NCBI RefSeq assembly: GCF_002285435.1
Contig: NZ_NSBT01000018.1
Location: 62,001-126,000 of the forward strand
DNA length: 64,000 nt
Reading direction: 5' to 3'
Source of the DNA: Actibacterium ureilyticum
Lineage (GTDB): Bacteria > Pseudomonadota > Alphaproteobacteria > Rhodobacterales > Rhodobacteraceae
Positions 35,511-62,972 of the stretch are shown piece after piece. The notes below the pieces were generated by a model that saw only the letters and a program-made list of their open reading frames with translations, was not told where the DNA came from and did not search any database. Within the stretch, counting starts at the first letter, position 1. Every line of letters starts with the position of its first letter. Made by a program: the position numbers and the translations under genes.

Positions 35511-36437
35511 ATGTACACCATTGCCGCCCTTTATCACTTCACCCGCTTCGATGACCCGGACGCGCTGCGCCCGGCCCTTCAGGCGCTGTGCGAGGCGCAG
35601 GGGGTCAAGGGCTCGCTTCTGATGGCGGGCGAGGGGATCAACGGCACCATCGCCGGCCCCCGCGCGGGCATCGACGCGGTGCTGGCCCATATCCGCGCCC
35701 TGCCCGGTTGCGCGGATCTGGAATGGAAGGAAAGCACCGCGACCAAGCCGCCCTTCACCCGGATGAAGGTCAAGCTGAAGCGCGAGATCGTGACGATGGG
35801 CCAGCCAGACATCGACCCGCGCGCCCGCGTCGGCCACTATGTTGCGCCCGCCGACTGGAACGCGCTGATCAGCGCGCCCGACGTGGCGGTGATCGACACG
35901 CGCAACGATTACGAGGTCGCGATTGGCACGTTTGACGGTGCAATAGACCCTGAAACCGCCACCTTTCGCGACTTTCCTGCCTGGTGGGAAGAAAACAAGC
36001 ACCGGTTCCACAACAAGCGGATCGCGATGTTCTGCACCGGCGGCATCCGGTGCGAGAAATCGACCAACTTCCTGCTGGGGCAAGGGGTCGAGGATGTCTA
36101 TCACCTGAAAGGCGGGATCCTGAAATACCTGGAAGAGGTCCCGCAGGGCGAAAGCCTGTGGCACGGCGAATGCTTCGTCTTTGACGAACGTGTCTCGGTC
36201 GGGCACGGGCTGGTGGAAGGCCCGCACGAGCTTTGCCGCGCCTGTCGCCGGCCGATCCTGCCCGAGGACCGGCAGCGCCCGGAATTCGAGCTGGGCGTGC
36301 AATGCCACCAATGCGTGGACGAATATTCCGAAGCCGACCGCACCCGGTTCCGCGAACGTCAGAAACAGATCAAGCTGGCCCGCGCACGGGGCGAGGAACA
36401 TATCGGCGCCGTACCGCGCAAGGCCGCCGGTCAGTAA
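35511..36437 (+). CDS. trhO: tRNA uridine(34) hydroxylase TrhO (rhodanese family)
   Basis: TrhO performs oxygen-dependent 5-hydroxylation of wobble uridine in tRNA. The 308-residue protein has an N-terminal acylphosphatase-like domain ([20 protein letters not shown]), a rhodanese domain with active-site Cys175 in [17 protein letters not shown], and a C-terminal cysteine-rich segment ([15 protein letters not shown] and GVQCHQCVD). The combination is specific to the YceA/TrhO family. It starts at ATG 35511. Its end overlaps by 7 bases the end of the convergent beta-helix protein gene. Confidence 0.94.
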
Positions 36438-39400
36438 AGCAGCGCGTCGCCGATCATCTGGTCGGTGACATCATCGCCGATAGCCAGGTTGTCGATACTG
36501 CCGGTAATGCTCTCGCCCCAGGCGCTGCCAACGGTCAGACCCCAATGGCTGACCTCGGCCGTGGTGCCGCTGGCCTGTGTCACCGCCATCACCGCATCGT
36601 CGATCTCCAGGCTCAGCACCTCGGCCGTGCTGTCATAGACGATTTGGACATTGTGCCAGTCGGTGTCGTCGAACGCGGCCTCGGCGCTGATGACCTGATG
36701 CGTGCCGGTATCGGTCTGCAGGGTGAAATGCAGACGGCCATCGCCGTCGATCACCGCATCCATGACCTCGTGCAGATGCATGACCCGGCCACTGTCCTGC
36801 GCCGCGTCGCGTTGAAAATCAAAGGCCAGCACGAAGCTGTCGGCGGCATTCAGATCAAGCGCACCGCGCCCAAAGGTCACGCTGCTGCCGGTATCCAGAT
36901 GCAGCGCCTGACCGGTCGGGCCGGTAACGAATGACGGCGCGGTCGGCAGGTCCTGAAACACCGTGGCGCCGTCGAGCACGTCATGCACCACACCTTCGAA
37001 GGTCAGCAGCGTTTCGGCCTGCCAACCCAACAGCTCGACCGTATCCAGCCCGGTATCGACCGGGGCCAGTGTCGTGCCGTCAAGGAAGCGGAAATCCTGA
37101 ACCGTGCCCGACAGCGGCTCTTGCCAGCCATGGCCCAGCACCAGACCCCAATATGCGGCATCGGCGGTCACGCCCGATGCGTCGGTCTGGGCGATGATAA
37201 CACCGTCGGCCTCTAGCTGGAGCAGCCCCGACGCCGCGTCATAGGCAAAGGCCAGGTCATAGCCCGCCGCATCCTGATAGAGCGCGCCCGCGCTGCGCAG
37301 GGTGAAGACCCCGTCGCTGGTCGTCAGCTCGAACACCACGTGGCCATGCGCATCGACCCGGGCCAGCAGGGTTTCGTGCAGATGCAGGAATGCGCCGCTT
37401 TCCCCCGCCGCATCGGTTTCCAGATGCAGCTCAATACGGAAATCGGTGCGGTTGAACAGGAACGCGGTCCTGGCGGGAATGGTGAAATCGACCTCGCCCA
37501 GGACAACAACGGTTCCGGGGGCGGATTCGGCCAAAGCCTCGTCCGTCTGGGGGGTGTCGTCTGGTTGGGCGGCGCTGTCCCCGTCGCCCGCGGTATCGAA
37601 CGCAATCACGTCCACCCGGGCCCCGGTATCGGTGCCTCCCCACCCGTCCGACCAGCCGCCGCGCGGTTCGGTCGACATCGCGAAATTGTCGATCACCCCA
37701 CGCACGCTTTCCGACCACGGATTGCCGACATACAGATGGTAATGCCCCGCCGATGCGGTCGTGCCCTCGGCAAAGCTTTCGCCGGCAAGCGTGTCGCCGA
37801 TGAACAGCTGCAATGTGCCCTGATCGGAATCGTAGGACACCCCGATCTTGCGCCAGTCGGTCGTTTCCATCACCCCGTCGGCGCTCAGAACCTCGAACGT
37901 GCCCGCATCGGTGGTCAGGCGGAACCGCAGCGCCCCGCTGGCGGTGATGAACAGCTCCATCGTGCCGGGCAGCCGCAACAGGGTGCCGTATTCGCGATGG
38001 GTCGCCGGTTTGTAATCCAGATCGAGCGAGAAGCTGGACAGGTCGAACATCTGTTCATTGCTGCGGTCGATCTGGATCAGCGTCCGCCCGGTCAGACGAA
38101 ACCCGCCCGCATCCAGCCCGTCGACCAGCACGGTCTGGTCCCACCCGTGATAGCTGAGCTGCGCATCGGCCTGTGACACATCCTGGACGCCATCGTTGAA
38201 ATCCAGCGACACGATATCGTTGCTGCGCACGCTGACCAGCCGCGATATCGTGTCGGTGCGGCCATCCTCGGACGTGACATCCAGGGTCACGCCATAGGTC
38301 CCGGCCTCGGCAAAGACGGCCAGGATGTTCTTGCCGTTTAGCGTCGTGCCATCGTCGAAGGTCCACCGGTACTGCGCCTTGTCGGGATCGCCGGTGATCA
38401 GGCTTTCGGTCGCGGTCAGGACCTGTGCCAGCCGATTGGCCGAGCTTTCGACGCCGCTGATCACCGCCGCGACCGTATCGGCAACCGTACCCCAGCCCAG
38501 GGTCGAGCCGTATTGGCCATTGGCCGCGCTGTCGGACAGAAAGGCCAGATCGCGGATGTCCAGATCCCCCTGCCCCGACAGGTTCACGATATGCCGGTGC
38601 ACATAGTTGGCATCATTCCGGTCGGCATAGTCGATGATGAAATTGCCATCGTGCTGACGGGTGCCGTCGACGGTCACACGACCGCTGACGTTATCGGTGA
38701 TCTGGGCGTTCAACGTGCCCGACACCGTGATCCCCGGCACGCGGCTGACCGACGTGTCGTCGGGGGTTGTCTGCGTGCCCGCGACGGTATTCCACAAAAG
38801 GGTGTTGTTGCCGATCTGAAGCCCGTCGACATAGCCCACGCGGATGCCGTTGGCCGCGCCGTTGTGGATCAGGTTGTCGGTGATCACGATATTGCGCGGC
38901 AACTCGTTCGCGGGGCCGTCCGTGCCGGCGATCGAATTGCCGATCAAAATCCCCTGCGATGCGGGCCCGGCGCCGGAATCCAGGATATTGCCGCTGATCG
39001 TCAGATCCCGGGTGACGGATTCCGCGCCCCGGGTCCAGATCTGGATCATATCGCTGTGGTTGATATCCTGGGTCGAGCCCAGGAAATCGTGCATGTAATT
39101 GTCGGTGACTTCCACGTTCTGCAATCCGACGCCACGGAACCCATCGCCCTGAATGCCCGACACGTCATTGCCGGTGAAGGTCGAATCCGTCACCTCGCGG
39201 TAGGCCACCCCGTGCAGATAGTTTTCGATCTGGTTGCCCGAGAATGTCACATGCGCGCTGTTACGGATCAGCGCCAGGTCGTTGCCCTCGACCCCGCCGC
39301 CATCGGATGAAAGATAGCCATCGGCCACGCCCTGCATCCGGTTGCCGACGAAGCTGATGTGATGGCTGCCCTGAACCCAGATATCGAAACTGTTGTCGGC

Positions 39401-39703
39401 CTCTTGCGCCAGGATGCCCGACCGGTCCACCACCGCCTCGGTCACGGTTAGATAGCTGGAAGCCTTGATCGTGATCTTCTCGATCACCGGGGGGTCCGCG
39501 GGGTCGAGCGCGCGGATCAATATCGGCGCATCCGCATCCAGACCGTCGGCCTGCAACCGGTACGGACCGCCCGCACCGTCCAGCCGGATCGTCCCGCCAC
39601 CGCTTGCGCTGAGCGTGGCAAGCGCTGCGTCGAGTTCCGCCGTAGAGGTCACGACGATCGTCTGGTTTTCATGTTCCGCATAGGGGGTGAACGGCGCCGT
39701 CAT
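36431..39703 (-). CDS. Large beta-helix / PKD / triple LamG-like protein, probable secreted polysaccharide-active protein
   Basis: The 1090-residue acidic protein has three parts. Residues about 90-340 are a right-handed parallel beta-helix with Asn-rich turns ([50 protein letters not shown]), as in polysaccharide lyases and epimerases. Residues about 430-490 are PKD-like ([17 protein letters not shown]). Residues about 497-1080 hold three concanavalin A/LamG-like repeats sharing a G-x-[14 protein letters not shown] closing strand and an HLHE-containing strand in the second and third. No signal peptide, RTX repeats or sorting signal are visible. It ends [14 protein letters not shown], compatible with type I secretion. 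I infer a lyase, epimerase or adhesin acting on the locus polysaccharide; the activity is unproven. Confidence 0.75.
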
Positions 39704-45568: not shown

Positions 45569-46252
45569 ATGACTGTAAGTTTTCAGAAGTTCTCAGACGA
45601 CATCGACATCATGAAAGCGCCCGGTCGGGGCCGGTCGCCACGCGGCGGGATCTATCGGTCTTTCTTGAAACGCTTGATGGATGTTACCCTGGTCATCGTC
45701 ACGCTGCCTTTCACGCTGCCGCTGGTGGCGGTGCTGGCCGTGTTCCTGTTCGCCGAAAGCGGCAACCCGTTCTTCCTGCAGCGCCGGTTGGGGCGGAATG
45801 GCCGCGTCTTCAGGATCTGGAAGCTGCGCACGATGGTGCCCGACGCGGATGCCCGCCTGAAGGCATACCTGGAACAGGACGCCGACGCGCGCGAGGAATG
45901 GACCAGAACGCAGAAGCTGAAGAAGGACCCGCGCATCACCCCGCTGGGCCGGTTCCTGCGCAAGACTTCGCTGGATGAGCTGCCGCAGCTTTGGAACGTG
46001 CTGCGCGGGGACATGTCCCTGGTCGGTCCGCGCCCGATGATGTGCAACCAGCGCCACATGTATCCCGGCGCGTCCTATTACAAGCTGCGCCCCGGCATCA
46101 CCGGCGCCTGGCAGATCTCGGACCGCAATGAAAGTGAGTTCAAGAGCCGCGCCGCCCATGACACCCGCTACGATCAGGACCTGTCGCTGTTCAACGACCT
46201 GCGCATCCTGGCCGGCACTGTCACCGCGGTGCTGCGCGGCACAGGCTACTGA
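45569..46252 (+). CDS. Priming sugar-phosphate transferase (ExoY/WbaP-type)
   Basis: This enzyme starts repeat-unit synthesis by moving a sugar 1-phosphate from a UDP-sugar to undecaprenyl phosphate. The 227-residue protein has one membrane segment (about 38-60, VTLVIVTLPFTLPLVAVLAV) and the bacterial sugar-transferase domain with VFRIWKLRTMVPDADARL, then ITPLGRFLRKTSLDELPQLW, RGDMSLVGPRP and RPGITGAWQISDR. The short form lacks the extra N-terminal helices of WbaP. The start at 45569 has GGAGAG upstream. UDP-Glc or UDP-Gal from galU/galE are candidate donors. Confidence 0.93.
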   Translation: MTVSFQKFSDDIDIMKAPGRGRSPRGGIYRSFLKRLMDVTLVIVTLPFTLPLVAVLAVFLFAESGNPFFLQRRLGRNGRVFRIWKLRTMVPDADARLKAYLEQDADAREEWTRTQKLKKDPRITPLGRFLRKTSLDELPQLWNVLRGDMSLVGPRPMMCNQRHMYPGASYYKLRPGITGAWQISDRNESEFKSRAAHDTRYDQDLSLFNDLRILAGTVTAVLRGTGY

Positions 46253-48964: not shown

Positions 48965-49582
48965 ATGATGCGCGCCGTTCTCGTTATTCTGAGCTTCCTC
49001 TTTGCAACCGCTACCGCGGCACTGGCCGCCGGGGGCAACTATACTGTCCGTGCGGGCGACACGCTTTCGGTCGAGGTTCTGGAAGATTCCTCGCTGAACC
49101 GGAACGTTCTGGTCCTGCCCGACGGGCAGATCAATTTCCCCTTCGCCGGCAGCGTCAGCGCGGCGGGCCGGACCATCGGCCAGATCCAGGGCGCGCTTGT
49201 CGCCGGGATCGAAGATCAGTTTCAGACCACCCCGACCGTCGTGGTGTCGGTGGTCAATATCCCGCTACGCACCGCGCCCAGCAGCCAAAGCGTCGCGCCC
49301 GCGACCATAAACGTGTATCTCATGGGCGAGGTGAACAATCCCGGCCTGCGCGAGGTCACGCCGGGAACCAGCTTCTTGCAACTGCTGTCGCAGGGCGGGG
49401 GCTTTACGAAATTCGCGGCAACCAAGCGTGTGCAAGTGCGCCGCCGCGATGCAACGACCGGAGCAGAACGGGTCTATAAGATAAACTATCGCGCTTTGGC
49501 GAATGGGGCAGCGCTGAGCGAAGATATCATACTGGCAAATGGCGATGTCATCCTCGTCCCGGAGCGTCGCCTCTTCGAGTAG
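48965..49582 (+). CDS. Short OPX-family polysaccharide export protein
   Basis: The 205-residue protein has a type I signal peptide (VLVILSFLFATATAALA), a Poly_export domain (YTVRAGDTLSVEVLEDSSLN, then DGQINFPFAGSVSAAGRTI) and a SLBB domain (YLMGEVNNPGLREVTPGTSF). It lacks a lipobox and the C-terminal amphipathic helix that forms the Wza outer-membrane pore. This is typical of short OPX proteins that need a separate barrel, presumably the next gene. Two ATGs in tandem (48965, 48968) make the first residue uncertain. Confidence 0.92.
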   Translation: MMRAVLVILSFLFATATAALAAGGNYTVRAGDTLSVEVLEDSSLNRNVLVLPDGQINFPFAGSVSAAGRTIGQIQGALVAGIEDQFQTTPTVVVSVVNIPLRTAPSSQSVAPATINVYLMGEVNNPGLREVTPGTSFLQLLSQGGGFTKFAATKRVQVRRRDATTGAERVYKINYRALANGAALSEDIILANGDVILVPERRLFE

Positions 49583-51091: not shown

Positions 51092-52708
51092 ATGAAAACG
51101 GATCCTGTCGTGCATTCAACCGACCACGCCCCCTTGGCGCCGACCTGGCAGACGCGCCCGAACATGCCCGGGCTTCTGGGCTTCATCGCGCTGCTGGCGG
51201 TGTCGGTTCCCGTGTTCTGGGTCGGCTTTCTGTCGCTGGGCAGGGCCTGGGCGACTGCTGAATACAGCCACGGGCCGCTGATCCCGCTGATCTCGCTCTA
51301 CCTGTTCCTGCGCGAGCTGCGCCGGTCGCCGCCGCCGGCCGAAACCGTGACCGACCGCTGGCCGGGCGTGGTGGTGATCGGCATCGGGCTGGCCATCGCG
51401 ATCTTGGGCAACCTGGTGCTGATCCCCGATATCGTCACCTATGGGTTCATCATCTGGGTGGGCGGCGTGGTGCTGACCGTGTTCGGCTGGCAGCGGGGCA
51501 AGCAACACCAGCTGCCGGTGCTGCACCTGGTCTTCATGCTGCCGCTGCCGCAATTCCTGTACTGGAAACTGTCGATCTTCCTGCAAACCGTGTCGTCGCA
51601 ACTGGGCGTCTGGTTCGTGTCGCAGGCGGGCGTGTCGGTGTTTCTGGACGGCAATATCATCGATCTGGGCGTCTACAAGCTGCAGGTGGCCGAGGCCTGT
51701 TCCGGCTTGCGCTACCTGTTCCCGATCCTGTCGTTTTCCTATCTGTTCGCGATCCTGTATCGCGGGCCGATGTGGCACAAGGCGGTGCTGCTTTTGTCGG
51801 CCGCGCCGCTGACGGTGCTGATGAATTCGTTCCGCATCGGCGTGATCGGCATTCTGGTCAATTCCTATGGCATCGAACAGGCCGAGGGGTTCCTGCATTT
51901 CTTCGAAGGCTGGGTGATCTTCCTAGCCTGTGTGGGGCTGCTGTTCCTGTTGGCGGTCGGGCTGCAACGGCTGGCGCCCAACCCCCTGTCGCTGGCCGAG
52001 GCGATCGACCTGGATTTCCAGGGTTTCGGCGGTATCCTGTCACGGATCGTGGGCATCAAGGCGTCGGCGGCGATGTTCGTGGCCACCGCGCTGACGCTGG
52101 TGGTCACCACGTCCTGGCTGCTGATCAAGCCCGCCGATCCCGTGCCGGTGCCGCGCGACCCCTTCACGCTGTATCCCAACAGCATTTCGGGCTGGTCGGC
52201 GATCCGCGAAAAGCTGGACCCGGCGGTCGAACAGGTTCTGGGCGCGGATGACTATATCAACGCCACCTTCGCTAGCACGGACGAGGCCGCATCGGTCAAT
52301 TTCTTCGTCGCCTTCTACAAGAAACAGACCGAGGGCACCGGCATCCACTCGCCCGAGGTCTGCTTGCCCGTCGGCGGGTGGGAGGTCTATTCGATCGACC
52401 CCTATCAGGTGTCGATGCCGCATACGATCTATGGCACGTTCGACCTGAACCGGGCGGTGATCGAAAAGGGCACGCTGCGGCAGCTGGTCTATTACTGGTT
52501 CGAACAGCGCGGCAAGCGGTTCACCAACGATTACCTGGCCAAGGCCTCGGTGCTGTATGACGGGCTGAGCATGGGCCGGACCGACGGTGCGATGGTCCGT
52601 TTCGTCACCCCCATCGAACCGGGCGAGGACGAAGCCGCCGCCGATGCCCGGCTGCAACGGTTCATGGCCGAAAGCCTGCCGCGCCTGCCGCGTTTCGTGC
52701 CGGAATAG
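51092..52708 (+). CDS. xrtD: Exosortase with C-terminal EpsI domain (XrtD-like)
   Basis: Exosortases are polytopic membrane cysteine proteases that recognise C-terminal sorting signals and may transfer proteins to surface polymers. The 538-residue protein has about ten hydrophobic segments and the catalytic triad Cys203 ([12 protein letters not shown]), Arg248 ([11 protein letters not shown]) and His269 (GFLHFFEGW). The C-terminal third is an EpsI domain ([20 protein letters not shown], then [18 protein letters not shown]). This architecture and an alphaproteobacterial host match the VPLPA-CTERM-specific class XrtD; the class assignment is my inference. No substrate with a matching C-terminus lies in this window. 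Confidence 0.88.
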
Positions 52709-53533: not shown

Positions 53534-54307
53534 ATGCCGATCATTCGCACCAATACCGACCTCATCTTCTTCGCCCATGTCCCGAAATGCGCCGGCTCTG
53601 CCATCGAAGATTACCTGCGCGCGCGGTTCCCGCTGATCGCCTTCGAAGACAACGCCTATATGCGCCGCCCGGTGGAACAGCGCTGGAACAAATCCTCGCC
53701 CCAGCATATCGACCTGGAAGCGCTGAACCGCCTGTTTCCACAGGGGTTTTTCGATCACAGCTTTGCCGTGGTGCGCCATCCCGTCGCCCGCATCGTCAGC
53801 GCCTATCACTTCCAGCACGAGGTCGAGCGCAGCATCCCCGAGTCCACCTCCTTCGTCGACTGGCTGCGCCTGATTCAGGACGAATCCGCGCAGCGCCCGT
53901 TCCAGTACGACAACCATGTCCGCCCCATGACCCAGCTTGTGCCCGAGGAAGCCCAGGTCTTTTACCTGGAACACGGGCTGGATGCGGTGATCCCGTGGCT
54001 GGACATGATCACCGGCGATATCGCCGGGCCGCGCGCCTTCACCCACAAGAACAAGCGCGGCGCATATACCCGCAACGCCAAGGAACAGGTCGTGCCCAGC
54101 GACGAGGAACTGGCCCTGATCGAAGAGATCTATGGCACAGATTTCGAACGCTTCGGCTATCGGATCGGCCAGAAGATGCCCGATGCCCCCGCGCCCGCCC
54201 TGCCCGACAGCTTCATCCTTGCGCGCGATGCGGAACTGGCCGCGCGCGATACGCTGTCCAGCAAGGTCAAGGACAAAGCCAACCGCCTGATGGCGCGGCT
54301 GAAATAA
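53534..54307 (+). CDS. PAPS-dependent sulfotransferase (Sulfotransfer_2 type)
   Basis: The 257-residue protein has the 5'-phosphosulfate loop FAHVPKCAGSAIEDYLRA near the N-terminus and the 3'-phosphate motif VVRHPVARIVSAYHFQ, with a C-terminal YGTDFERFGYRIG segment typical of this family. It should sulfate a carbohydrate. It starts 107 bases after the rhomboid gene and is followed after 8 bases by the metallophosphatase gene. Its intact PAPS loop contrasts with the degenerate second domain of the enzyme at 5479. Confidence 0.88.
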   Translation: MPIIRTNTDLIFFAHVPKCAGSAIEDYLRARFPLIAFEDNAYMRRPVEQRWNKSSPQHIDLEALNRLFPQGFFDHSFAVVRHPVARIVSAYHFQHEVERSIPESTSFVDWLRLIQDESAQRPFQYDNHVRPMTQLVPEEAQVFYLEHGLDAVIPWLDMITGDIAGPRAFTHKNKRGAYTRNAKEQVVPSDEELALIEEIYGTDFERFGYRIGQKMPDAPAPALPDSFILARDAELAARDTLSSKVKDKANRLMARLK

Positions 54308-55131: not shown

Positions 55132-55233
55132 GGCATTGAGCAGGTATTCGCCGCAATCCCCGACTTTGTCATGGATTCGTTTCCACCAGCTTAGTAGCGT
55201 GCAGAGGAAATCGTTTTGAAACCGGGGCTTACG

Positions 55234-56649
55234 ATGATCCACCCTGTTATCCTTTGCGGCGGCTCCGGCACGCGGCTGTGGCCCAGTTCGCGCCGGGCCT
55301 ATCCAAAACAGTTCATCGGGCTGTTGGGCCAGGACACGTTGTTTCAATCGACGCTGAAACGCCTGTCCGGCCCGGATTTCGGCGCGCCGCTGGTGATGAC
55401 GAATGCCGATTTCCGCTTCATCGCGACCGATCAATGCGAGGAAATCGGCCTGTCGGATGCGCGCGTGGTGATCGAACCCGCGCTGCGCAACACCGGGCCT
55501 GCGATTCTGGCCGCCGCGCTGATGCTCGAGGATACGCCAGACGCGCTGATGCTGGTGGCCCCGTCCGATCACATCATGGGCGATATCGATGCGTTTCTGC
55601 AAAGCCTGCGCATCGGTGCCGAGGCCGCGGCAAGCGGCAAGCTGGTGACATTCGGCGTGACGCCCACCGGACCCGAAACCGGCTATGGCTATCTGGAGCT
55701 CGAGGCGCCGGTCAACGGTGCACTGAAACCCTATCCCCTGAAGGGGTTCACCGAAAAACCCGATGCCGAGACCGCGCAGAAACTGGTCGATGGCGGGCGG
55801 CATTTGTGGAACGCGGGCCTGTTCCTGTTCCGTGTGCGCGACATCATCGCCGCGTTCGAAAAACACGCGCCCGACATGATGGCGCCCTGCCGGGGCGCGG
55901 TGCAGAACGGCGCGCAGGATCTGGGATTCTATCGCCTGTCCGAGGCCGAGTTCACCGACGCGCGGTCGGAATCCATCGACTATGCCGTGATGGAAATGGC
56001 CGACAATATCGCGGCGGTGCCGCTCAGCTGCGGCTGGTCGGATCTGGGCAGCTGGGACGCGCTTTGGGCCGCGTCAGAGCCTGATTCAGACGGTATCGTC
56101 ACCCAAGGCACCGCCACGGCGGTCGATTGCGCCAACACGTTTCTGCGGTCGGAAAGCGACGATATCCAGCTGGTCGGCGTCGGCCTGAAGGATATCGTGG
56201 CGGTCGCGATGCGCGACGCGGTTCTGGTGGCGGACATGAACGCCTCGCAACAGGTGAAGGACGCCGTCACGCTGCTGAAACAGCGAAAGGTTTCGCAGGC
56301 CGAGGATTACCCGCGCTTTCACCGCCCTTGGGGCTGGTACGAGACCCTGTGCCTGGACAGCCGGTTCCAGGTGAAACGCATCATGGTGAAACCCGGCGGC
56401 ACGCTGAGCCTGCAAAGCCACATGCACCGGTCCGAACACTGGATCGTGGTCGCCGGCACCGCGCAGATCACCATCGGGGACGAGGAAAAGCTGCTGTCGG
56501 AAAACCAGTCGGTCTATATTCCGCTGGGCGCCGTACACCGCATGGCAAACCCCGGACGCGTGCCGATGTACCTGATCGAGGTGCAGACCGGCGCTTATTT
56601 GGGCGAAGACGACATCGTGCGTTACGAGGATGTCTATAACCGGAACTAA
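55234..56649 (+). CDS. manC: Mannose-1-phosphate guanylyltransferase / mannose-6-phosphate isomerase (type II, ManC-like)
   Basis: This enzyme makes GDP-mannose. The 471-residue protein has an N-terminal nucleotidyltransferase domain (VILCGGSGTRLWPSSRRAYP, then GFTEKPDAETAQ) and a C-terminal cupin domain with HRPWGWYETLCLDSRFQVKR and LSLQSHMHRSEHWIVVAGTA, typical of bifunctional type II PMI-GMPs. The ATG at 55234 lies directly before the nucleotide-binding strand. It stands next to the AlgD-like dehydrogenase gene, which would use its product. Confidence 0.95.
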   Translation: MIHPVILCGGSGTRLWPSSRRAYPKQFIGLLGQDTLFQSTLKRLSGPDFGAPLVMTNADFRFIATDQCEEIGLSDARVVIEPALRNTGPAILAAALMLEDTPDALMLVAPSDHIMGDIDAFLQSLRIGAEAAASGKLVTFGVTPTGPETGYGYLELEAPVNGALKPYPLKGFTEKPDAETAQKLVDGGRHLWNAGLFLFRVRDIIAAFEKHAPDMMAPCRGAVQNGAQDLGFYRLSEAEFTDARSESIDYAVMEMADNIAAVPLSCGWSDLGSWDALWAASEPDSDGIVTQGTATAVDCANTFLRSESDDIQLVGVGLKDIVAVAMRDAVLVADMNASQQVKDAVTLLKQRKVSQAEDYPRFHRPWGWYETLCLDSRFQVKRIMVKPGGTLSLQSHMHRSEHWIVVAGTAQITIGDEEKLLSENQSVYIPLGAVHRMANPGRVPMYLIEVQTGAYLGEDDIVRYEDVYNRN

Positions 56650-56745: not shown

Positions 56746-58014
56746 ATGAAGGTTGTCATTTTTGGGTTGGGGTATGTCGGGTTCACGGCCGGGTGCTGTA
56801 TCTCTTCCGAGGGTCACACGGTGGTCGGCATCGATGTCAGCCAGAAAAAGGTCGATGCGATCAATGCGGGCCAGGCCCCGATCGTCGAGCCGCAAGTCAC
56901 CGAAATGCTGTCAGATGCGCTGGAAAAGGGACTGTTTCAGGCCGATACGACCATTGGCGACCACCTGAAGGATGCCGATCTGGCCATTGTCTGCGTCGGC
57001 ACGCCATCGGCGCCCGACGGGTCGCACAACATGGGCTATATCGCCGATGTCAGCCGCCAGATCGCCGAGGCGGTCAAGAACACCGATACCGGCAAATTCG
57101 CCGTCGCCTATCGGTCGACCATCCGCCCCGGCACGATCGAAGAACTGATCGCGCCCATCTTCGCTTCCACCCTGGGCGCGGATTTCAAGAACCGGGTCGA
57201 GATCGTCTATAACCCCGAATTCCTGCGCGAAGGGACGGCGGTAAAGGATTATTTCGAGCCGCCCAAGATCGTCATCGGCACCAGCGACGGCCAGCCCAAC
57301 GCCGCGATGGAGGCGCTGAACGCCAATATCACCGCGCCGACCTTCATCGTGGGCTATCGCGAGTCCGAGGTGACGAAATTCGTCGACAACACCTGGCACG
57401 CGGTCAAGGTGGCCTTTGCCAATGAAATCGGGCGCGTCTGCCTTCAGGCCGGGATCTCCGCCAAGAAGGTGCACGAAATCTTCGTGTCGGACACCAAACT
57501 GAACATCTCGCCCTATTACATGCGGCCGGGCGGGGCGTTTGGCGGCTCGTGCCTGCCCAAGGACGTGCGCGCGTTGCAGCATATCGGCTCGGATATCGGC
57601 GCGAACCTGCATCTGGTCGACAGCCTGATCCGCTCGAACGAGGCGCATAAACACGCGCTGTTCGAATTCGCGGCCGAGGGGCTGGAGCCCGGCGCAAGCA
57701 TCCTGATCGCCGGGCTGGCGTTCAAGGCGGGCACGGATGACCTGCGCGAAAGCCCGAATGTCGACCTGACGCGCAAGCTGCTGGCGGCTGGGTACAAGGT
57801 GGAAATCTATGACCCCGCCATCGCCGCCGACATGCTGGTGGGCGCGAACCTGGGCTATGCCTATAGCCGGCTGCCGATGCTGGAAACATTGCTGATCGAC
57901 AAGGATCGCGCTGAAACAGGGTCTTATGACCGGGTTCTGGCCAATAACGCGACGATCAAGCAACTGGCCCTGAAGGACCCCGGGATTGTTCGCGATCTGG
58001 GGACCCTGGCATGA
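56746..58014 (+). CDS. GDP-mannose 6-dehydrogenase-like nucleotide-sugar dehydrogenase
   Basis: The 422-residue enzyme has an N-terminal NAD-binding motif (VVIFGLGYVGFTAGCCISSE), the central YRESEVTKFVDNTWHAVKVA and the catalytic Cys269 in GGAFGGSCLPKDVRALQ. The LNISPYYMRPGGAFGGS context closely resembles AlgD, which oxidises GDP-mannose to GDP-mannuronate. Its adjacency to manC supports that over UDP-glucose dehydrogenase, but this family is easily misassigned. The next gene overlaps it by 4 bases. It predicts a uronic acid in the exopolysaccharide. Confidence 0.88.
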   Translation: MKVVIFGLGYVGFTAGCCISSEGHTVVGIDVSQKKVDAINAGQAPIVEPQVTEMLSDALEKGLFQADTTIGDHLKDADLAIVCVGTPSAPDGSHNMGYIADVSRQIAEAVKNTDTGKFAVAYRSTIRPGTIEELIAPIFASTLGADFKNRVEIVYNPEFLREGTAVKDYFEPPKIVIGTSDGQPNAAMEALNANITAPTFIVGYRESEVTKFVDNTWHAVKVAFANEIGRVCLQAGISAKKVHEIFVSDTKLNISPYYMRPGGAFGGSCLPKDVRALQHIGSDIGANLHLVDSLIRSNEAHKHALFEFAAEGLEPGASILIAGLAFKAGTDDLRESPNVDLTRKLLAAGYKVEIYDPAIAADMLVGANLGYAYSRLPMLETLLIDKDRAETGSYDRVLANNATIKQLALKDPGIVRDLGTLA

Positions 58015-59246
58015 GCCGGATCGAAACCCCGCGCATGACGGCGGCCCGCGCCGCCGCGCCGCTGGCGGGGCGCAAGGTTCTGATCATCGTCGAAAACCTG
58101 CCGCTGCCCTTCGACCGGCGCGTCTGGCACGAATGCCGCACATTGACGGCTGCGGGCGCGCAGGTCAGCGTGATCTGCCCCACCGGCAAGGGGTACGAGG
58201 CACCCTATGAAGAGATTGAGGGCGTCCATATCTATCGCCACAACTTGCCCGTGGATGCCAAGGGCGCGGCGGGCTATCTGCTGGAATATTCCGCCGCGTT
58301 GTTCCACGAGATGCGGCTGGCCATCAAGGTGGCGATGAAACACGGGTTCGACACGATCCAGGGCTGCAACCCGCCGGACCTGATCTTTCTGGTCGCCTGG
58401 CCGTTCAAGCTGTTCGGCAAGCGCTATATCTTCGACCACCACGACATCAACCCCGAGCTTTACGAGGCGAAATTCAACCGCCGCGACTTTTTCTGGCGGC
58501 TGATGAAATGGTGCGAGCGGCGGAATTTCCGCGCCGCCGATGTGGTGATCTCGACCAACAATTCCTATCGCGATATCGCGCTGACCCGTGGCGGCAAGGC
58601 CCCGCAGGATGTGTTCGTCGTGCGCTCGGGCCCCGATTTGACCCGGCTGACGGTGATGCCACCCAATCCGAAATGGAAGAACGGGCGCGCGCATATGGTG
58701 GGCTATGTCGGCGTGATGGGCGACCAGGAGGGGCTGGACCTGTTGCTGGAATCCGCGCGCGATCTGGTGCATGAACGCGGCCGCGATATCCAGTTCGTTC
58801 TGGTGGGCGGCGGCCCCGCGCTGGACGATCTGAAACGCATGGCCGCCGACATGAAGCTGACCGATCACGTCACCTTCACCGGCCGCGCCCCCGATGCCGA
58901 CCTGTTCGAGGTGCTGTCGACCGCCGATGTCTGCGTGAACCCCGACCGGGTGAACCCGATGAACGACAAGTCGACCATGAACAAGATCCTGGAATACATG
59001 GCGTTTTCCAAACCCATCGTGCAGTACGAGGTTGCCGAAGGCCGGTTTTCGGCGCAAGAGGCCTCGCTCTACGCCACCCCGAACGACACCACCGACATGG
59101 CCGACAAGATCGCGGCCCTTCTGGACGACCCTGATCGGTGTGCCGAAATGGGTGTTTTCGGGCGAAACAGGGTCGAAACGGAGCTGAGCTGGGATCATCA
59201 GGTCGACATACTTATCGCCGCCTATCAGCGCGTGATGGACCGCTGA
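58011..59246 (+). CDS. Glycosyltransferase family 4 protein
   Basis: The 411-residue protein has the GT-B fold with an N-terminal acceptor domain (VLIIVENLPLPFDRRVWHEC) and a C-terminal donor domain. The donor motif includes VGYVGVMGDQEGLDLLLESA and the E-x7-E-like STMNKILEYMAFSKPIV. DHHDINPELYEAKF is typical of one exopolysaccharide subgroup. It is translationally coupled to the dehydrogenase gene (ATGA overlap), so it may transfer the uronic acid made there. It overlaps the next gene by one base. Confidence 0.9.
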   Translation: MSRIETPRMTAARAAAPLAGRKVLIIVENLPLPFDRRVWHECRTLTAAGAQVSVICPTGKGYEAPYEEIEGVHIYRHNLPVDAKGAAGYLLEYSAALFHEMRLAIKVAMKHGFDTIQGCNPPDLIFLVAWPFKLFGKRYIFDHHDINPELYEAKFNRRDFFWRLMKWCERRNFRAADVVISTNNSYRDIALTRGGKAPQDVFVVRSGPDLTRLTVMPPNPKWKNGRAHMVGYVGVMGDQEGLDLLLESARDLVHERGRDIQFVLVGGGPALDDLKRMAADMKLTDHVTFTGRAPDADLFEVLSTADVCVNPDRVNPMNDKSTMNKILEYMAFSKPIVQYEVAEGRFSAQEASLYATPNDTTDMADKIAALLDDPDRCAEMGVFGRNRVETELSWDHQVDILIAAYQRVMDR

Positions 59247-60139
59247 TGCAGCCGCGCCGACAGATCACGACCCAGGCCGGGTTCGGCCCGCAGATCCAGC
59301 GCTCGCCGCTTGAAAAGCTGCGGATCAAGCTGAAGAACGCCTATGGCCGGAACAAGGGCACGCTGCGCAATCCCGAATTCTGGGCGCTGACGCCGAAACT
59401 GGCGGCGGGCGCGCTGAACCGCAAGCCGCGCCAGCCGGGCGATCCGGTGCTGTTCGTGTCGACCCATCACAAGGCGATGACCACCTATTTCGTCGACGTG
59501 ATGCGGCTGTTTGCGATGTGCCGTGGCCAGCGGTTCGAGATCGTGAACATGCAGCAGCCGAAAGCCCAGACCGACATCTTCGTGTCGGGCCACAGCAAGA
59601 TGGACCTGCCCGCGCTGGCGCCATATCGCGGGGTGCATATCACGCGCGACCCGCGCGACATGATCATTTCCGGTTACCACTACCACAAATGGACGACCGA
59701 GGAATGGGCCCACCGCCCCGATGACCAGGGGCGCAGCTATCAGCAGAAGCTTCTGGCCGCGTCGCAGGATGACGGGCTTTACATGGATATCGACCATTTC
59801 ATCTTTTCCTATCGCGATCTGCTGGAAAACTGGGACATGGACGATCCCGATATGCTGGAGCTGAAGTTCGAGGATCTGATGGGCGACGGGCGCGCCGCAC
59901 TTTACGACCAGATTTTCCGCCATTTCGGCTGTAACAGTGACGATCTGGCGCTTGGCATCCGGCTGATGACCATGTTCGAGGCCAAGAAACGCGCGGGCAA
60001 ATCCACCGGCGCGAAATCCCATGTCCGCAGCGCGAAATCGGGCCAGTGGAAGGGGATGCTGACCGCCGATCACCTGGCCTATATCGATACCGAACTGGGC
60101 GATGTGCTGGACAAGTTCGGCTATCCCCGCGCGGGCTAG
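59246..60139 (+). CDS. PAPS-dependent sulfotransferase (exopolysaccharide locus)
   Basis: The 297-residue protein has the 5'-phosphosulfate loop FVSTHHKAMTTYFVDVMRLF, in which HHKAMTTY replaces the usual PKxGTT, and the 3'-phosphate motif ITRDPRDMIISGYHYHKW. The C-terminus has a nucleoside-binding SHVRSAKSGQWKGMLTAD segment. The start overlaps the glycosyltransferase stop by one base, so it probably sulfates the same polymer. An inverted repeat surrounds its stop codon (60135-60162). Confidence 0.85.
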   Translation: MQPRRQITTQAGFGPQIQRSPLEKLRIKLKNAYGRNKGTLRNPEFWALTPKLAAGALNRKPRQPGDPVLFVSTHHKAMTTYFVDVMRLFAMCRGQRFEIVNMQQPKAQTDIFVSGHSKMDLPALAPYRGVHITRDPRDMIISGYHYHKWTTEEWAHRPDDQGRSYQQKLLAASQDDGLYMDIDHFIFSYRDLLENWDMDDPDMLELKFEDLMGDGRAALYDQIFRHFGCNSDDLALGIRLMTMFEAKKRAGKSTGAKSHVRSAKSGQWKGMLTADHLAYIDTELGDVLDKFGYPRAG

Positions 60140-60162
60140 GGCGTTGCGCCCATGGCCCTAGC
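60135..60162. other. Perfect 8-bp inverted repeat spanning the sulfotransferase stop
   Basis: GCTAGGGC (60135-60142) and GCCCTAGC (60155-60162) flank 12 bases; GGGCG/CGCCC inside offers an alternative stem. It lacks a T-run. A related GCTAGGGT occurs about 60 bases downstream. Confidence 0.5.
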
Positions 60163-60238
60163 AGCGGGCGGGGCGCTTACGAACCCTCAACACCGGCATC
60201 GCTAGGGTGGCGCGCATTTCGACCTGAAAGGACGCACC

Positions 60239-60502
60239 ATGCCCCAAGATGCCTATGACAACATGACCCCTTCGCTTCAAAGCCCCGCTGTCGGGATCGA
60301 AGAGGTCACGCCCGACGACCTGACCGACCTGGCCAATGTCACCCGCGCGCTGAACGTGGCCACCGCCGGAACCGTTCGCGTGATCGCGGCCGACGGCACC
60401 AGCGGCGATGTGTTCGTGGCCGCCGGGATCACCTTTCCGATCCGGGCCCGCCGCGTTCTGGCGACAGGCACCACCGCGACCGGTATCCGCGGGCTGTACT
60501 GA
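60239..60502 (+). CDS. Phage/GTA spike-base-like small protein
   Basis: The 87-residue protein contains PSLQSPAVGIEEVTPDDLTD, then RALNVATAGTVRVIAADGTS and ends with ITFPIRARRVLATGTTATGI. This resembles the small spike-base proteins of gene transfer agents and tailed phages (RCAP_rcc01079-like), which have beta-rich LPVR..RVLATGTTAT ends. No capsid, tail or terminase gene is nearby. It may be an isolated domain recruited for a surface role, or a scattered GTA-accessory gene. AAAGGA lies 7 bases upstream of the ATG. Confidence 0.7.
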   Translation: MPQDAYDNMTPSLQSPAVGIEEVTPDDLTDLANVTRALNVATAGTVRVIAADGTSGDVFVAAGITFPIRARRVLATGTTATGIRGLY

Positions 60503-60515
60503 GCGCGCAAAAATT

Positions 60516-60549
60516 GGCCAATCCGCGCCGCTTGGGTTGTGGATTGGCC
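60516..60549. other. Perfect 9-bp inverted repeat between the spike-base-like gene and the flippase gene
   Basis: GGCCAATCC (60516-60524) and GGATTGGCC (60541-60549) flank 16 bases, starting 13 bases after the stop of the spike-base-like gene. It could terminate that short transcript; no T-run follows. Confidence 0.5.
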
Positions 60550-60639: not shown

Positions 60640-62052
60640 ATGTTCAAATCCGTCCTGCTGCTGCTTTCGGGCAATGCGTTCAGCGCATTGATGCTGCTGA
60701 TACGCAACCTGCTGGTGGCGCGGCTGATTTCGGTGTCCGACTATGGCATCGCGGCGACATTCGCGATCTCGATGGCCATGGTCGAGATGATGTCGAACCT
60801 GGGCCTGCAGCAGATGATCGTGCAGGACAAGGATGGCGAGGACCCCGCGCTTCAGGCCGGGTTGCAAGGGTTTCAGGCCCTGCGCGGCGTGCTGTCATCG
60901 CTGATCCTGCTGCTTCTGGCGCATCCGCTGGCGATGTTCCTGGGCGTGCCGCATGTCGCCTGGGCCTATCAGGCGATGGCGCTGGTGCCGCTGATGAACG
61001 GTTTCATGCATTTCGACGTGTTCCGCATGCAGCGGCAGATGCGCTACCTGCCGCATATGCTGACCGTTTCGGTGCCTGCGCTGGTGTCGGTGCTGCTGGT
61101 CTGGCCGCTGGACCGCCTTTTCGGCGATTATCGCGTGATGCTGTTCGCGGTGCTGGCGCAGTCGATGATGACGCTCGTCACCTCGCATCTAACGGCCAAA
61201 AGCCGCTATCGGATTCGCATGGATCGCCAGATCATGGGGCGCGGATTGCGATTCGGTTGGCCGCTTCTGATCAACGGAATGCTGCTGTTCATCGTGTTTC
61301 ACGGCGAAAAACTGGTCGTCGGGCGTGAATTGGGCATGGCGAAACTGGCCATCCTGGCGATGGGTTTCACCCTGACCCTGACGCCCACGCTGGTGGTGTC
61401 GCGCAGCGTGCAATCCTTCTTCCTGCCGCAGCTGTCGCGCCCCGATCTGCCGCCCGAGAAATTCACCATGATCGGCATCGCCGCGGTCGAGGCGAACCTG
61501 CTGAATGGCCTGGTGCAGGTCGCCGGGATCATGCTGTTCGGACCGTTGCTGGTGCAATGGGTTCTAAACACGAATTACGGTGAATTGGTGCCGCTTTTGC
61601 TGTTCCTGTCGATCCTGCACGCCGTGCGCGTGTTCAAGGCTGGACCGGCGGCGGTGGCGCTGGCCTGTGCCCAGACCGACAACGCCATGTGGGCCAACCT
61701 GTGCCGGGTCCTGACCGTGCCGCTGGCGTGGTATGCGGCGGCCCAAGGCTACGGGCTGACCACGGTGGTCTGGATCGCGCTGGGGGGCGAGCTTTGCGGC
61801 TTTGCCGTGGCGCTGATCCTGCTGCGGCGGCGGGTTGGATTTGACCTGCGACCATTGCGCGGTCCGGTGATTGCCTGTTTCCTGTTCCTGACCCTACTCT
61901 TTCTGTACGGGCTGATCAGCCAGGGTATTTTGCCGCTGCCGATCAATCTGAACCTGCTGGCGGGGTTGTGCATCGCGACCTTCGGGCTGGCGCTGTTCAT
62001 GTTGGGCGGGTTGCGCCGCTATGTTCTGGATCGAAAGGCACGACGCCCCTAA
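60640..62052 (+). CDS. Oligosaccharide flippase (Wzx-like, polysaccharide-biosynthesis MOP family)
   Basis: The 470-residue protein has about 12-14 membrane segments and begins LLLLSGNAFSALMLLIRNLL with the MOP-superfamily pattern of early helices (LVARLISVSDYGIAATFAIS). It likely moves undecaprenyl-linked repeat units to the periplasm. It is the only recognised flippase of the locus. The leader carries a perfect 7-bp hairpin (60604-60620, loop AAA) just before the ribosome-binding site. The stop overlaps the next start by one base. Confidence 0.9.
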   Translation: MFKSVLLLLSGNAFSALMLLIRNLLVARLISVSDYGIAATFAISMAMVEMMSNLGLQQMIVQDKDGEDPALQAGLQGFQALRGVLSSLILLLLAHPLAMFLGVPHVAWAYQAMALVPLMNGFMHFDVFRMQRQMRYLPHMLTVSVPALVSVLLVWPLDRLFGDYRVMLFAVLAQSMMTLVTSHLTAKSRYRIRMDRQIMGRGLRFGWPLLINGMLLFIVFHGEKLVVGRELGMAKLAILAMGFTLTLTPTLVVSRSVQSFFLPQLSRPDLPPEKFTMIGIAAVEANLLNGLVQVAGIMLFGPLLVQWVLNTNYGELVPLLLFLSILHAVRVFKAGPAAVALACAQTDNAMWANLCRVLTVPLAWYAAAQGYGLTTVVWIALGGELCGFAVALILLRRRVGFDLRPLRGPVIACFLFLTLLFLYGLISQGILPLPINLNLLAGLCIATFGLALFMLGGLRRYVLDRKARRP

Positions 62053-62972
62053 TGACCGAGAGCCTGCCTCTTTTGCTGCATGTCGGTTATCACAAGACCG
62101 CCACCAGCTGGATGCAGAACCGGTTGTTCACGCCCGATCACGGATACGCCCAGCTTTGCGGCCATCAACAGGTGCACGACCTGATCACCAATCCCCACGG
62201 GCTGCAGTTCGACCCGCATCTGATGCGGGATCTGATCGACACCGCCCGCCAAAAGGTGCCCCAAGGGGCGGTTCCCGTGATTTCGTCCGAGATCCTGTCG
62301 GGCCATCATTTCACCGGCGGCTATCAGTCCGATGTCTATGCCTGGCGGCTGAAAGAGATCGCCCCCCGCGCCCTCATCCTGTTGTCGATCCGGTCGCAGA
62401 TGACGATCCTGCCGTCTTGCTACATGCAATATCTGATGAGCGGCGGCACAATGCCCTGGCCGCAATTCTTTCGCGGCGAACGCGATATCGGCTATCCAGC
62501 GTTTTCCCCGGTGCATTTCGAGTATGACCGCCTGATCGACCATTACCAGACCCTGTTCGGGGCGGAAAACGTGCATGTCGTGACCCAGGAAAGCATCGCT
62601 CACGACATGGGACAGATGGCTGACGAGCTGGCGGCGTTTACCGGAAACAGGCTCTATTCCGGCCTGAGTGACAGCGCTCGCGTGATCTATGCGCCCAGCT
62701 ATGCCGAAACGACCGCGCCGGTTCTGCGGCGGATCAACCATGTGCAATCCAGCATGCTGAACCGGTGCCCGGTTATCGAGCTGGGCCATACACCCACCGG
62801 TCTGTTCAAACTCTATGGCGCGGGGCATCGGCGTGTGATGGGGGCGCTTGGCCGCGAGCCGGCCCGGCCGATCCGGGCCTATGTGCGGGACACCTTTGGC
62901 GACCGGTTCGGTGACAGCAACCGGCGTCTGGCCGCGCTGGTTCCCGGCCTGGACCTGAGCGATTATCCCTGA
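62052..62972 (+). CDS. Sulfotransferase-like protein
   Basis: The 306-residue protein has a PAPS-loop-like N-terminus, LLHVGYHKTATSWMQNRLF, and a probable 3'-phosphate segment LILLSIRSQMTILPSCYMQY. The sequence is more divergent than the other sulfotransferases in the window, so activity is less certain. It is translationally coupled to the flippase gene (one-base overlap), suggesting work on the same lipid-linked or exported glycan. Its end overlaps the convergent MarR gene by 10 bases. Confidence 0.8.
   Translation: MTESLPLLLHVGYHKTATSWMQNRLFTPDHGYAQLCGHQQVHDLITNPHGLQFDPHLMRDLIDTARQKVPQGAVPVISSEILSGHHFTGGYQSDVYAWRLKEIAPRALILLSIRSQMTILPSCYMQYLMSGGTMPWPQFFRGERDIGYPAFSPVHFEYDRLIDHYQTLFGAENVHVVTQESIAHDMGQMADELAAFTGNRLYSGLSDSARVIYAPSYAETTAPVLRRINHVQSSMLNRCPVIELGHTPTGLFKLYGAGHRRVMGALGREPARPIRAYVRDTFGDRFGDSNRRLAALVPGLDLSDYP

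Follow-up and report, generated by a model that had tools for sequence, protein, structure and literature searches.

What is the gene for a protein resembling the spike base of a phage or gene transfer agent (GTA) doing in a locus for exopolysaccharide (EPS) synthesis? A GTA is a domesticated virus by which DNA passes from one bacterium to another. The question is raised by a 64,000-nt stretch of the Actibacterium ureilyticum genome, referred to here as the window. A first reading of this stretch, made from the sequence alone, had offered two answers: the protein might cap or modify the polymer, or it might supply a receptor-binding part for a GTA encoded elsewhere. The analysis described here favors the second answer. 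Specifically, by analogy with the GTA of R. capsulatus (RcGTA), the protein is probably part of the polysaccharide-gripping spike of a GTA encoded elsewhere, and not a polymer-modifying enzyme.

The spike base and its neighbors

The open reading frame (ORF) at 60239..60502 (+) is intact, starts with ATG, and encodes an 87-aa head-spike base protein of the RcGTA (GhsA/Rcc01079) type. It matches the NCBIfam model NF048002 (spike base protein, RCAP_Rcc01079 family) with 101.6 bits against a cut-off of 28 (2.2e-29), and the alignment covers the full length of the profile (positions 1–85 of 85). PHROG 12296, “tail fiber,” matches the ORF at 1.8e-20, and the nearest solved chain by sequence is that of Rcc01079, the RcGTA head-spike base (PDB 6tb9, E 7e-14). 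Thus, the resemblance to GTA and phage spike bases proposed in the sequence-only reading is borne out, and the profile comparison with the RCAP_rcc01079 family that it had called for shows strong similarity. In contrast, there is no credible match to an enzyme family: a Pfam scan of the ORF returned no family, and the sole further NCBIfam row is a fusidic acid esterase (E 0.023, 13.3 bits). An AlphaFold2 model of the base, from an alignment of 40 sequences, reaches a mean pLDDT of 95.3, and Foldseek places it on 6tb9_A1, the small jellyroll of Rcc01079, with TM scores of 0.86/0.88 and an rmsd of 1.6. Only two Foldseek matches have E < 0.001, namely 6tb9 (GTA capsid) and 8cjz (phage Carin1 capsid); a PDB sequence search gives the chain name of the latter as Spike Base Protein. 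The predicted fold is that of a capsid-vertex jellyroll. A single copy of the base gene was found in the A. ureilyticum genome.

The neighbors of the base gene in the window are capsule/EPS biosynthesis genes, as judged by Pfam. On the forward strand, they encode a bacterial sugar transferase (45569..46252; PF02397 2e-59), a Poly_export/SLBB EPS export protein (48965..49582; PF02563 9.9e-17), an exosortase with DUF3485 (51164..52708, scanned from 51092; PF09721 2e-65, PF11984), a sulfotransferase of the Sulfotransfer_2 type (53534..54307; PF03567), a mannose-1-phosphate guanylyltransferase/isomerase of the ManC type (55216..56649, start codon unsure; PF01050, PF00483), a UDP-glucose/GDP-mannose dehydrogenase (56746..58014; PF03721, PF00984), and a glycosyltransferase (58011..59246; PF13692, PF13439). 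A second sulfotransferase (59246..60139; Sulfotransfer_1, PF00685 1.2e-6) lies directly before the base gene, and a polysaccharide flippase of the Wzx type (60640..62052; Polysacc_synt_3, PF13440 4e-33) directly after it, as had been described from the sequence. The flippase gene is followed by a gene for a protein without a Pfam match (62052..62972), a homolog of which (cluster c74) also follows the flippase in the Actibacterium naphthalenivorans locus L033. Among ten neighbors scanned with Pfam, nine have non-phage Pfam matches and one has none, which agrees with the earlier statement that no other phage gene lies nearby. Near the EPS locus, on the reverse strand, the window also encodes a 1090-aa protein with right-handed beta-helix, PKD, and Laminin_G domains (36431..39703). 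Related beta-helix proteins (cluster c15) are repeatedly found in EPS loci that contain base genes, and the 1090-aa protein is possibly EPS-acting or EPS-bound.

The two hairpins said to bracket the base gene fared unequally. The downstream dyad (60516..60549, +) has perfect 9-bp arms, at 60516–60524 and 60541–60549, with no T tract, and the stretch that holds it is more stably folded than shuffles (z −2.9). A search downstream of the base gave no terminator-like site with a T tract. Upstream of the base there are inverted repeats, for example the 8-bp arms at 60135–60142 and 60155–60162, but a hairpin acting there as a terminator or structured leader is ruled out by a z of −0.22 versus shuffles and by the lack of a terminator-like site. 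The same inverted-repeat stretch holds the conserved promoter element described below.

A transfer agent cluster and a candidate fiber elsewhere

The A. ureilyticum genome has one match to the portal family PF04860 and one to GTA_TIM, ~10 kb apart on contig C30, where the gene calls run from a 457-aa terminase to a 1315-aa GTA_TIM protein. The order of this GTA cluster is canonical, as expected from RcGTA, and no spike base was found in the cluster stretch. The family was sampled with one genome per genus, 295 in all, and the base occurs in 102 of them (101 over the cut-off). GTA_TIM is present in 97/102 base-positive and 162/193 base-negative genomes (Fisher p = 0.005). GTA_TIM may match phage proteins too, so this association is supporting evidence only; several sample genomes have more than one GTA_TIM match. 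Since 162 of the 259 genomes with GTA_TIM have no detectable base, a GTA does not need a base of the NF048002 family. GTA_TIM is missing from five base-positive genomes, of which G114, G239, and G248 have a match to the A. ureilyticum GTA terminase, and G141 and G263 have neither match. Two other base-positive genomes (G018 and G274) have GTA_TIM and no terminase match at 1e-50. There are also GTA structural homologs in the base stretch itself at seven Brevundimonas or Caulobacteraceae loci (L070, L075, L082, L098, and L109–L111), at L094 and L053, and once in the family sample (L222). Placement of the base beside GTA structural homologs in Brevundimonas and Caulobacteraceae is possibly ancestral.

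Where is the fiber that such a base would hold? No fiber gene adjoins the base in A. ureilyticum, and a scan for star peptides, a pattern seen at other loci, found no fiber gene within the window. In Actibacterium naphthalenivorans (L033), a 753-aa fiber that starts MMIMMGLAIGPG is encoded ~3.4 kb downstream of the base on the other strand. Used as a query, this protein finds a single place in the A. ureilyticum genome at E up to 1, with an E value of 5.5e-151. The gene found there (C9:29127–31355) lies on the same contig as the base, 91 kb upstream, in a second EPS block. It encodes a 744-aa protein with the N-terminus MMISIGLAIGAG that is 41%–44% identical to the Actibacterium fiber over nearly its full length. 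The candidate matches nothing in Pfam or PHROG at E 0.01; its PDB match, to 7awy, was set aside, with no single stretch passing alone; and the AlphaFold2 model of the Actibacterium fiber has a pLDDT of 33.8. The second EPS block encodes a GT2 glycosyltransferase, a beta-helix protein, a hexapeptide acyltransferase, and a GDSL esterase, and has a weak Wzy_C match under the Pfam cut-off; the two polymerase/ligase-like calls (in L045 and for the C9 gene) rest on sub-cut-off Wzy_C scores. The base and the fiber candidate are each found among EPS genes, even though they are 91 kb apart. The most likely candidate for the partner of the base is this 744-aa protein with its star-like peptide.

The fiber family (E 1e-25) is found in 11 of the 295 genomes, and all 11 are base-positive (hypergeometric p = 6e-6). 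Base and fiber are apart in four of these 11: A. ureilyticum, G063, G225, and G257. The distant fibers of the last three start MGLNLGLNI, MALMIALGMG, and MIGVGLTLG, and behind the corresponding bases (L132, L192, and L209), there is no ORF of at least 90 aa that starts within 80 nt. An orphan base, therefore, need not lack a fiber.

Several features of spike genes were seen in passing. A gene for a GDSL-type esterase lies directly before the in-trans fiber gene of A. ureilyticum (L230:8362–8901; contig C9, 28361), and genes of the same esterase cluster, c122, lie near same-family fibers in L118, L216, L148, and L291. At two other loci, the protein in the fiber position beside the base matches PF03629, a sialic-acid-specific acetylesterase family (L125:10019–11974, 2e-12; L034:10255–12105, 1.1e-4, under the cut-off), which raises the possibility that some GTA spikes deacetylate polysaccharide. 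Another group of bases, with NPF.NR or similar at the N-terminus, is followed by proteins that start MK....[DE][FLI]S and not with a star-like peptide (L119, L121, L129, L131, L140, L149, L160, and L202). One locus (L199, G234:C6) has two spike-base domains in tandem.

Polysaccharide linkage and a shared promoter element

How general is the placement of base genes beside EPS genes? Base neighborhoods of up to 20 kb each, with genes called by a simple script, gave 111 sample loci from 100 of the 102 base-positive genomes; the A. ureilyticum genome was counted apart, and a weak match in G222 (L228) and a duplicate stretch (L227) were dropped. Eleven EPS hallmark profiles were built from Pfam-identified clusters of the base loci, chosen after looking, and applied alike to 20 control regions on contigs of base-positive genomes, two of which are themselves EPS-rich. 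At least two EPS hallmark genes are found in 65/111 base loci versus 3/20 controls (Fisher p = 2.9e-4), and at least three in 50/111 versus 2/20 (p = 0.002). Counted by gene, hallmarks are three times denser near bases (254/1741) than in controls (16/339). Hence, the check on relatives proposed in the sequence-only reading shows that placement is not random. Among the 66 EPS-linked loci, which include the window, there are 49 types of flanking pair, with unclustered neighbors pooled as one type. The other 46 sample loci look, by eye, like phage-like regions or base-fiber pairs among housekeeping genes. On a base tree of 88 columns, which is poorly resolved (4 of 109 inner branches are well supported), EPS linkage requires 30 changes versus 35.8 in shuffles, and 13 of 500 shuffles are as low. 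This mild clustering means that linkage is partly inherited. Repeated gain of linkage by base genes is suggested, with only three changes forced on this tree.

The regions upstream of base genes were searched for shared words and for longer elements. GTTAA/TTAAC occurs in 40/111 base upstreams (shuffles have a mean of 12.9 and a maximum of 26), first among 30 words of equal composition; it was not found upstream of the base in the window. GYGTTGCG/CGCAACRC occurs in 21/111, versus a shuffle mean of 1.6 and 25 of 922 control genes, and the window has this word as the GCGTTGCG box (60141..60148, +). Longer elements were sought by five-fold cross-validation in which the random seeds came solely from the training part; its 650 distinct controls were the upstream regions of non-base genes of these loci that had gaps of 150 nt or more. 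All five folds converge on one composite element, which reads CGYRCGGTG-N3-TAA-N7-TTAA in gene orientation. Held-out scores exceed 8 for 43/65 EPS-linked and 23/46 other base upstreams (66/111 together) versus 33/650 controls (Mann-Whitney p = 7e-25 for EPS-linked and 2e-9 for other bases). With a matrix from which the window was left out, matches lie 78–150 nt before the start codon (10th–90th percentile), and one strand holds 71 of the 75. The element in the window, GCAGCGGGCGGGGCGCTTACGAACCCTCAA (60161..60190, +), lies 49–78 nt before the start codon and scores 13.0 with the matrix from all 111 loci, the window left out. Under the five fold matrices it scores 11.3–12.4, a level reached by 1.8% of the 650 control upstreams. 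Its TTA-N7-TTAA half is degenerate (TTAC-N7-TCAA, by eye). Relatives outside the set score 14.7–17.1 (L032) and 14.4–17.6 (L033). The 200 nt upstream of the in-trans fiber candidate have a chance-level score, which 58% of controls reach.

Is the element also found at GTA clusters? The window-free matrix was used to scan the 900 bases before 30 terminase genes, that of A. ureilyticum included. These 30 encode the terminases of highest similarity from the 260 genomes that had a match. On the reverse strand, 23 of the 30 best matches fall in one 130-nt interval (22 in −450..−320), whereas 300 matrices with permuted columns, each allowed to choose its best interval, average 10.1 of 30 and reach at most 18. 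The gene strand shows no such clustering (11, a level matched by 84 of 300 permuted matrices). At the A. ureilyticum GTA cluster, the match reads, in gene direction, TAATAAACTTCTTGACCTTCCGAACGGTCC, and after it comes GGGGTATACC, which looks like a core promoter. With a promoter region of its own and, in it, an element that also occurs at GTA clusters, the base gene is probably in the GTA regulon and not in an EPS operon. As to the regulators, TTAA-N7-TTAA is the box of the cell-cycle regulator CtrA; CtrA is a candidate for binding the TTAA half of the element, and GafA is one for its CGYRCG half. For R. capsulatus, it has been reported that CtrA-P, together with GafA, triggers the head-spike genes, and that the late-locus promoters have putative CtrA half-sites in three cases and putative GafA sites in two (PMC9638019, in excerpt).

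Explanations and comparison with known spikes

What, then, does the base protein do? Very probably, it is the head-spike base of the cell's own GTA. The earlier suggestion that it supplies a part for a GTA encoded elsewhere is well supported by the single GTA cluster, the matching fiber gene in trans, and the promoter element common to GTA clusters; the description “receptor-binding part” is right as to the GTA part, but, strictly, the base would carry the receptor-binding fiber. By analogy with RcGTA, five copies of the base would form a ring on the capsid vertices, and the ring would hold one fiber via an N-terminal star peptide, most likely that of the 744-aa protein. The fiber would then grip the EPS of the recipient cell before the tail engages, as is known for RcGTA. 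Expression of the base would be under the control of the GTA regulon, perhaps through CtrA with GafA. The place of the base gene among EPS genes probably reflects co-evolution and joint inheritance of spike and receptor.

The other answer offered from the sequence, that the base acts within the EPS pathway by capping or modifying the polymer, has only its position in its favor. It is extremely improbable, given a capsid-vertex jellyroll fold that at E < 0.001 matches two structures, one from a GTA capsid and one a spike base of a phage, the absence of any credible enzyme family match, a promoter element that is rare upstream of neighboring genes (33/650), and the occurrence of the base family near GTA structural homologs in Brevundimonas loci. 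The base could instead be the leftover of a vanished prophage, stranded in the EPS locus with no working particle. There are observations in keeping with this: no fiber gene adjoins the base, base homologs are found in 19 of 50,697 phage records, and some sample loci look phage-like by eye (for example, L158, L169, and L175). However, the ORF is intact with a confident predicted fold, its gene has a promoter element, a fiber candidate is kept in trans, the one GTA cluster in the genome has the canonical order, and bases lie beside EPS genes in many genera with highly varied flanks (49 pair types in 66 loci). A stranded remnant is, therefore, quite unlikely.

A further explanation concerns the placement of spike genes and not the role of the protein: variable EPS loci may simply collect genes, such that the linkage is neutral. 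Linkage is indeed not obligatory, with 46 of 111 base loci failing the EPS rule, and part of it appears to be inherited, given the mild clustering on the base tree (13/500 shuffles). Nonetheless, the threefold hallmark density near bases, the presence of both base and fiber in EPS blocks although they are 91 kb apart, and the proximity of receptor and spike genes in R. capsulatus as well (PMC10218006, in excerpt) make neutral linkage the less likely account, at perhaps one chance in a few. 

What would the GTA reading mean more broadly? We tentatively propose, at somewhat below an even chance, that GTA spike genes of the Rhodobacterales repeatedly settle, with a GTA-type promoter, in the loci for the polysaccharides that their spikes bind, such that receptor and fiber form a lock-and-key module that acts as a kin-recognition device, with split arrangements as swap stages. 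If this is true, GTAs would have a built-in form of kin recognition that steers transfer to cells with the same coat, and bases and fibers split over EPS blocks would be stages in swapping fiber and receptor together. Cells that produce GTAs die, which raises the question of why selection retains these agents; joint travel of spike genes and receptor-making genes, if it occurs, would limit the benefits of GTAs to kin whose coat matches. Polysaccharide receptors have been discussed as limiting GTA targets to close kin (PMC10883770, in excerpt), which fits the lock-and-key reading. There are also practical implications. For annotators, a spike base that stands alone in an EPS locus can be read as a probable GTA part, the fiber of which may be elsewhere, and the shared promoter element provides a way to look for scattered GTA genes.

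Some of this is already known from R. capsulatus, where the spike genes lie beside capsule genes. They adjoin and are co-regulated with the capsule genes, and the spike fiber binds capsule (PMC10218006, in excerpt); a pentamer of the base sits on the RcGTA capsid vertex and holds one fiber, whose IALGLGLGL peptide forms a five-pointed star, and the spikes attach particles to capsule (PMC7296036, in excerpt). The recurrence of the linkage across genera, the split of base and fiber over EPS blocks, and the promoter element shared across genera are additions of the present analysis. These three points were not found in the excerpted texts of PMC7296036, PMC10218006, PMC9638019, PMC8601537, PMC10883770, PMC6209664, and PMC13420450; Brimacombe 2013, Hynes 2016, and Westbye 2016 may report part of them.

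RcGTA is among the closest known systems. A. ureilyticum resembles it in the fold of the base, in having a genomic GTA cluster, and in the location of spike genes amid genes for polysaccharide (for R. capsulatus, PMC10218006, in excerpt). The base in the window is 48% identical to GhsA (Rcc01079, 6tb9) in an alignment with an 80-residue part. There are also differences. In R. capsulatus SP108 (L069), the fiber gene overlaps the end of the base gene, whereas the fiber candidate of A. ureilyticum is 91 kb off. The locus was not filed as an rcc01079-80-type operon because base and fiber are not adjacent, as they are in the type-strain gene order; membership of the base family is independent of this adjacency. 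The promoter element is present at the A. ureilyticum base gene but was not detected upstream of the R. capsulatus base gene, which scores only 2.0–5.8. The N-terminus of the RcGTA fiber GhsB (Rcc01080), IALGLGLGL (PMC7296036, in excerpt), alternates hydrophobic residues and glycine, like that of the candidate. GhsB, however, has 325 aa, and the candidate has 744 aa and is encoded in trans; the candidate clusters with the Actibacterium fiber, and the R. capsulatus fiber falls in a different cluster. The spike bases of tailed phages (Carin1, 8cjz; RcapNL; Pseudanabaena phage Pan1) have the same fold or belong to the same family but are encoded in phage genomes, and they are more distant, with 28% identity to 8cjz over 87 columns and 45% to RcapNL. 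A similar locus is that of A. naphthalenivorans, one of the two closest named relatives. Its base (L033) is 66% identical and lies in a similar EPS gene order, with base and same-family fiber together in one EPS locus, whereas in A. ureilyticum they occupy separate EPS blocks.
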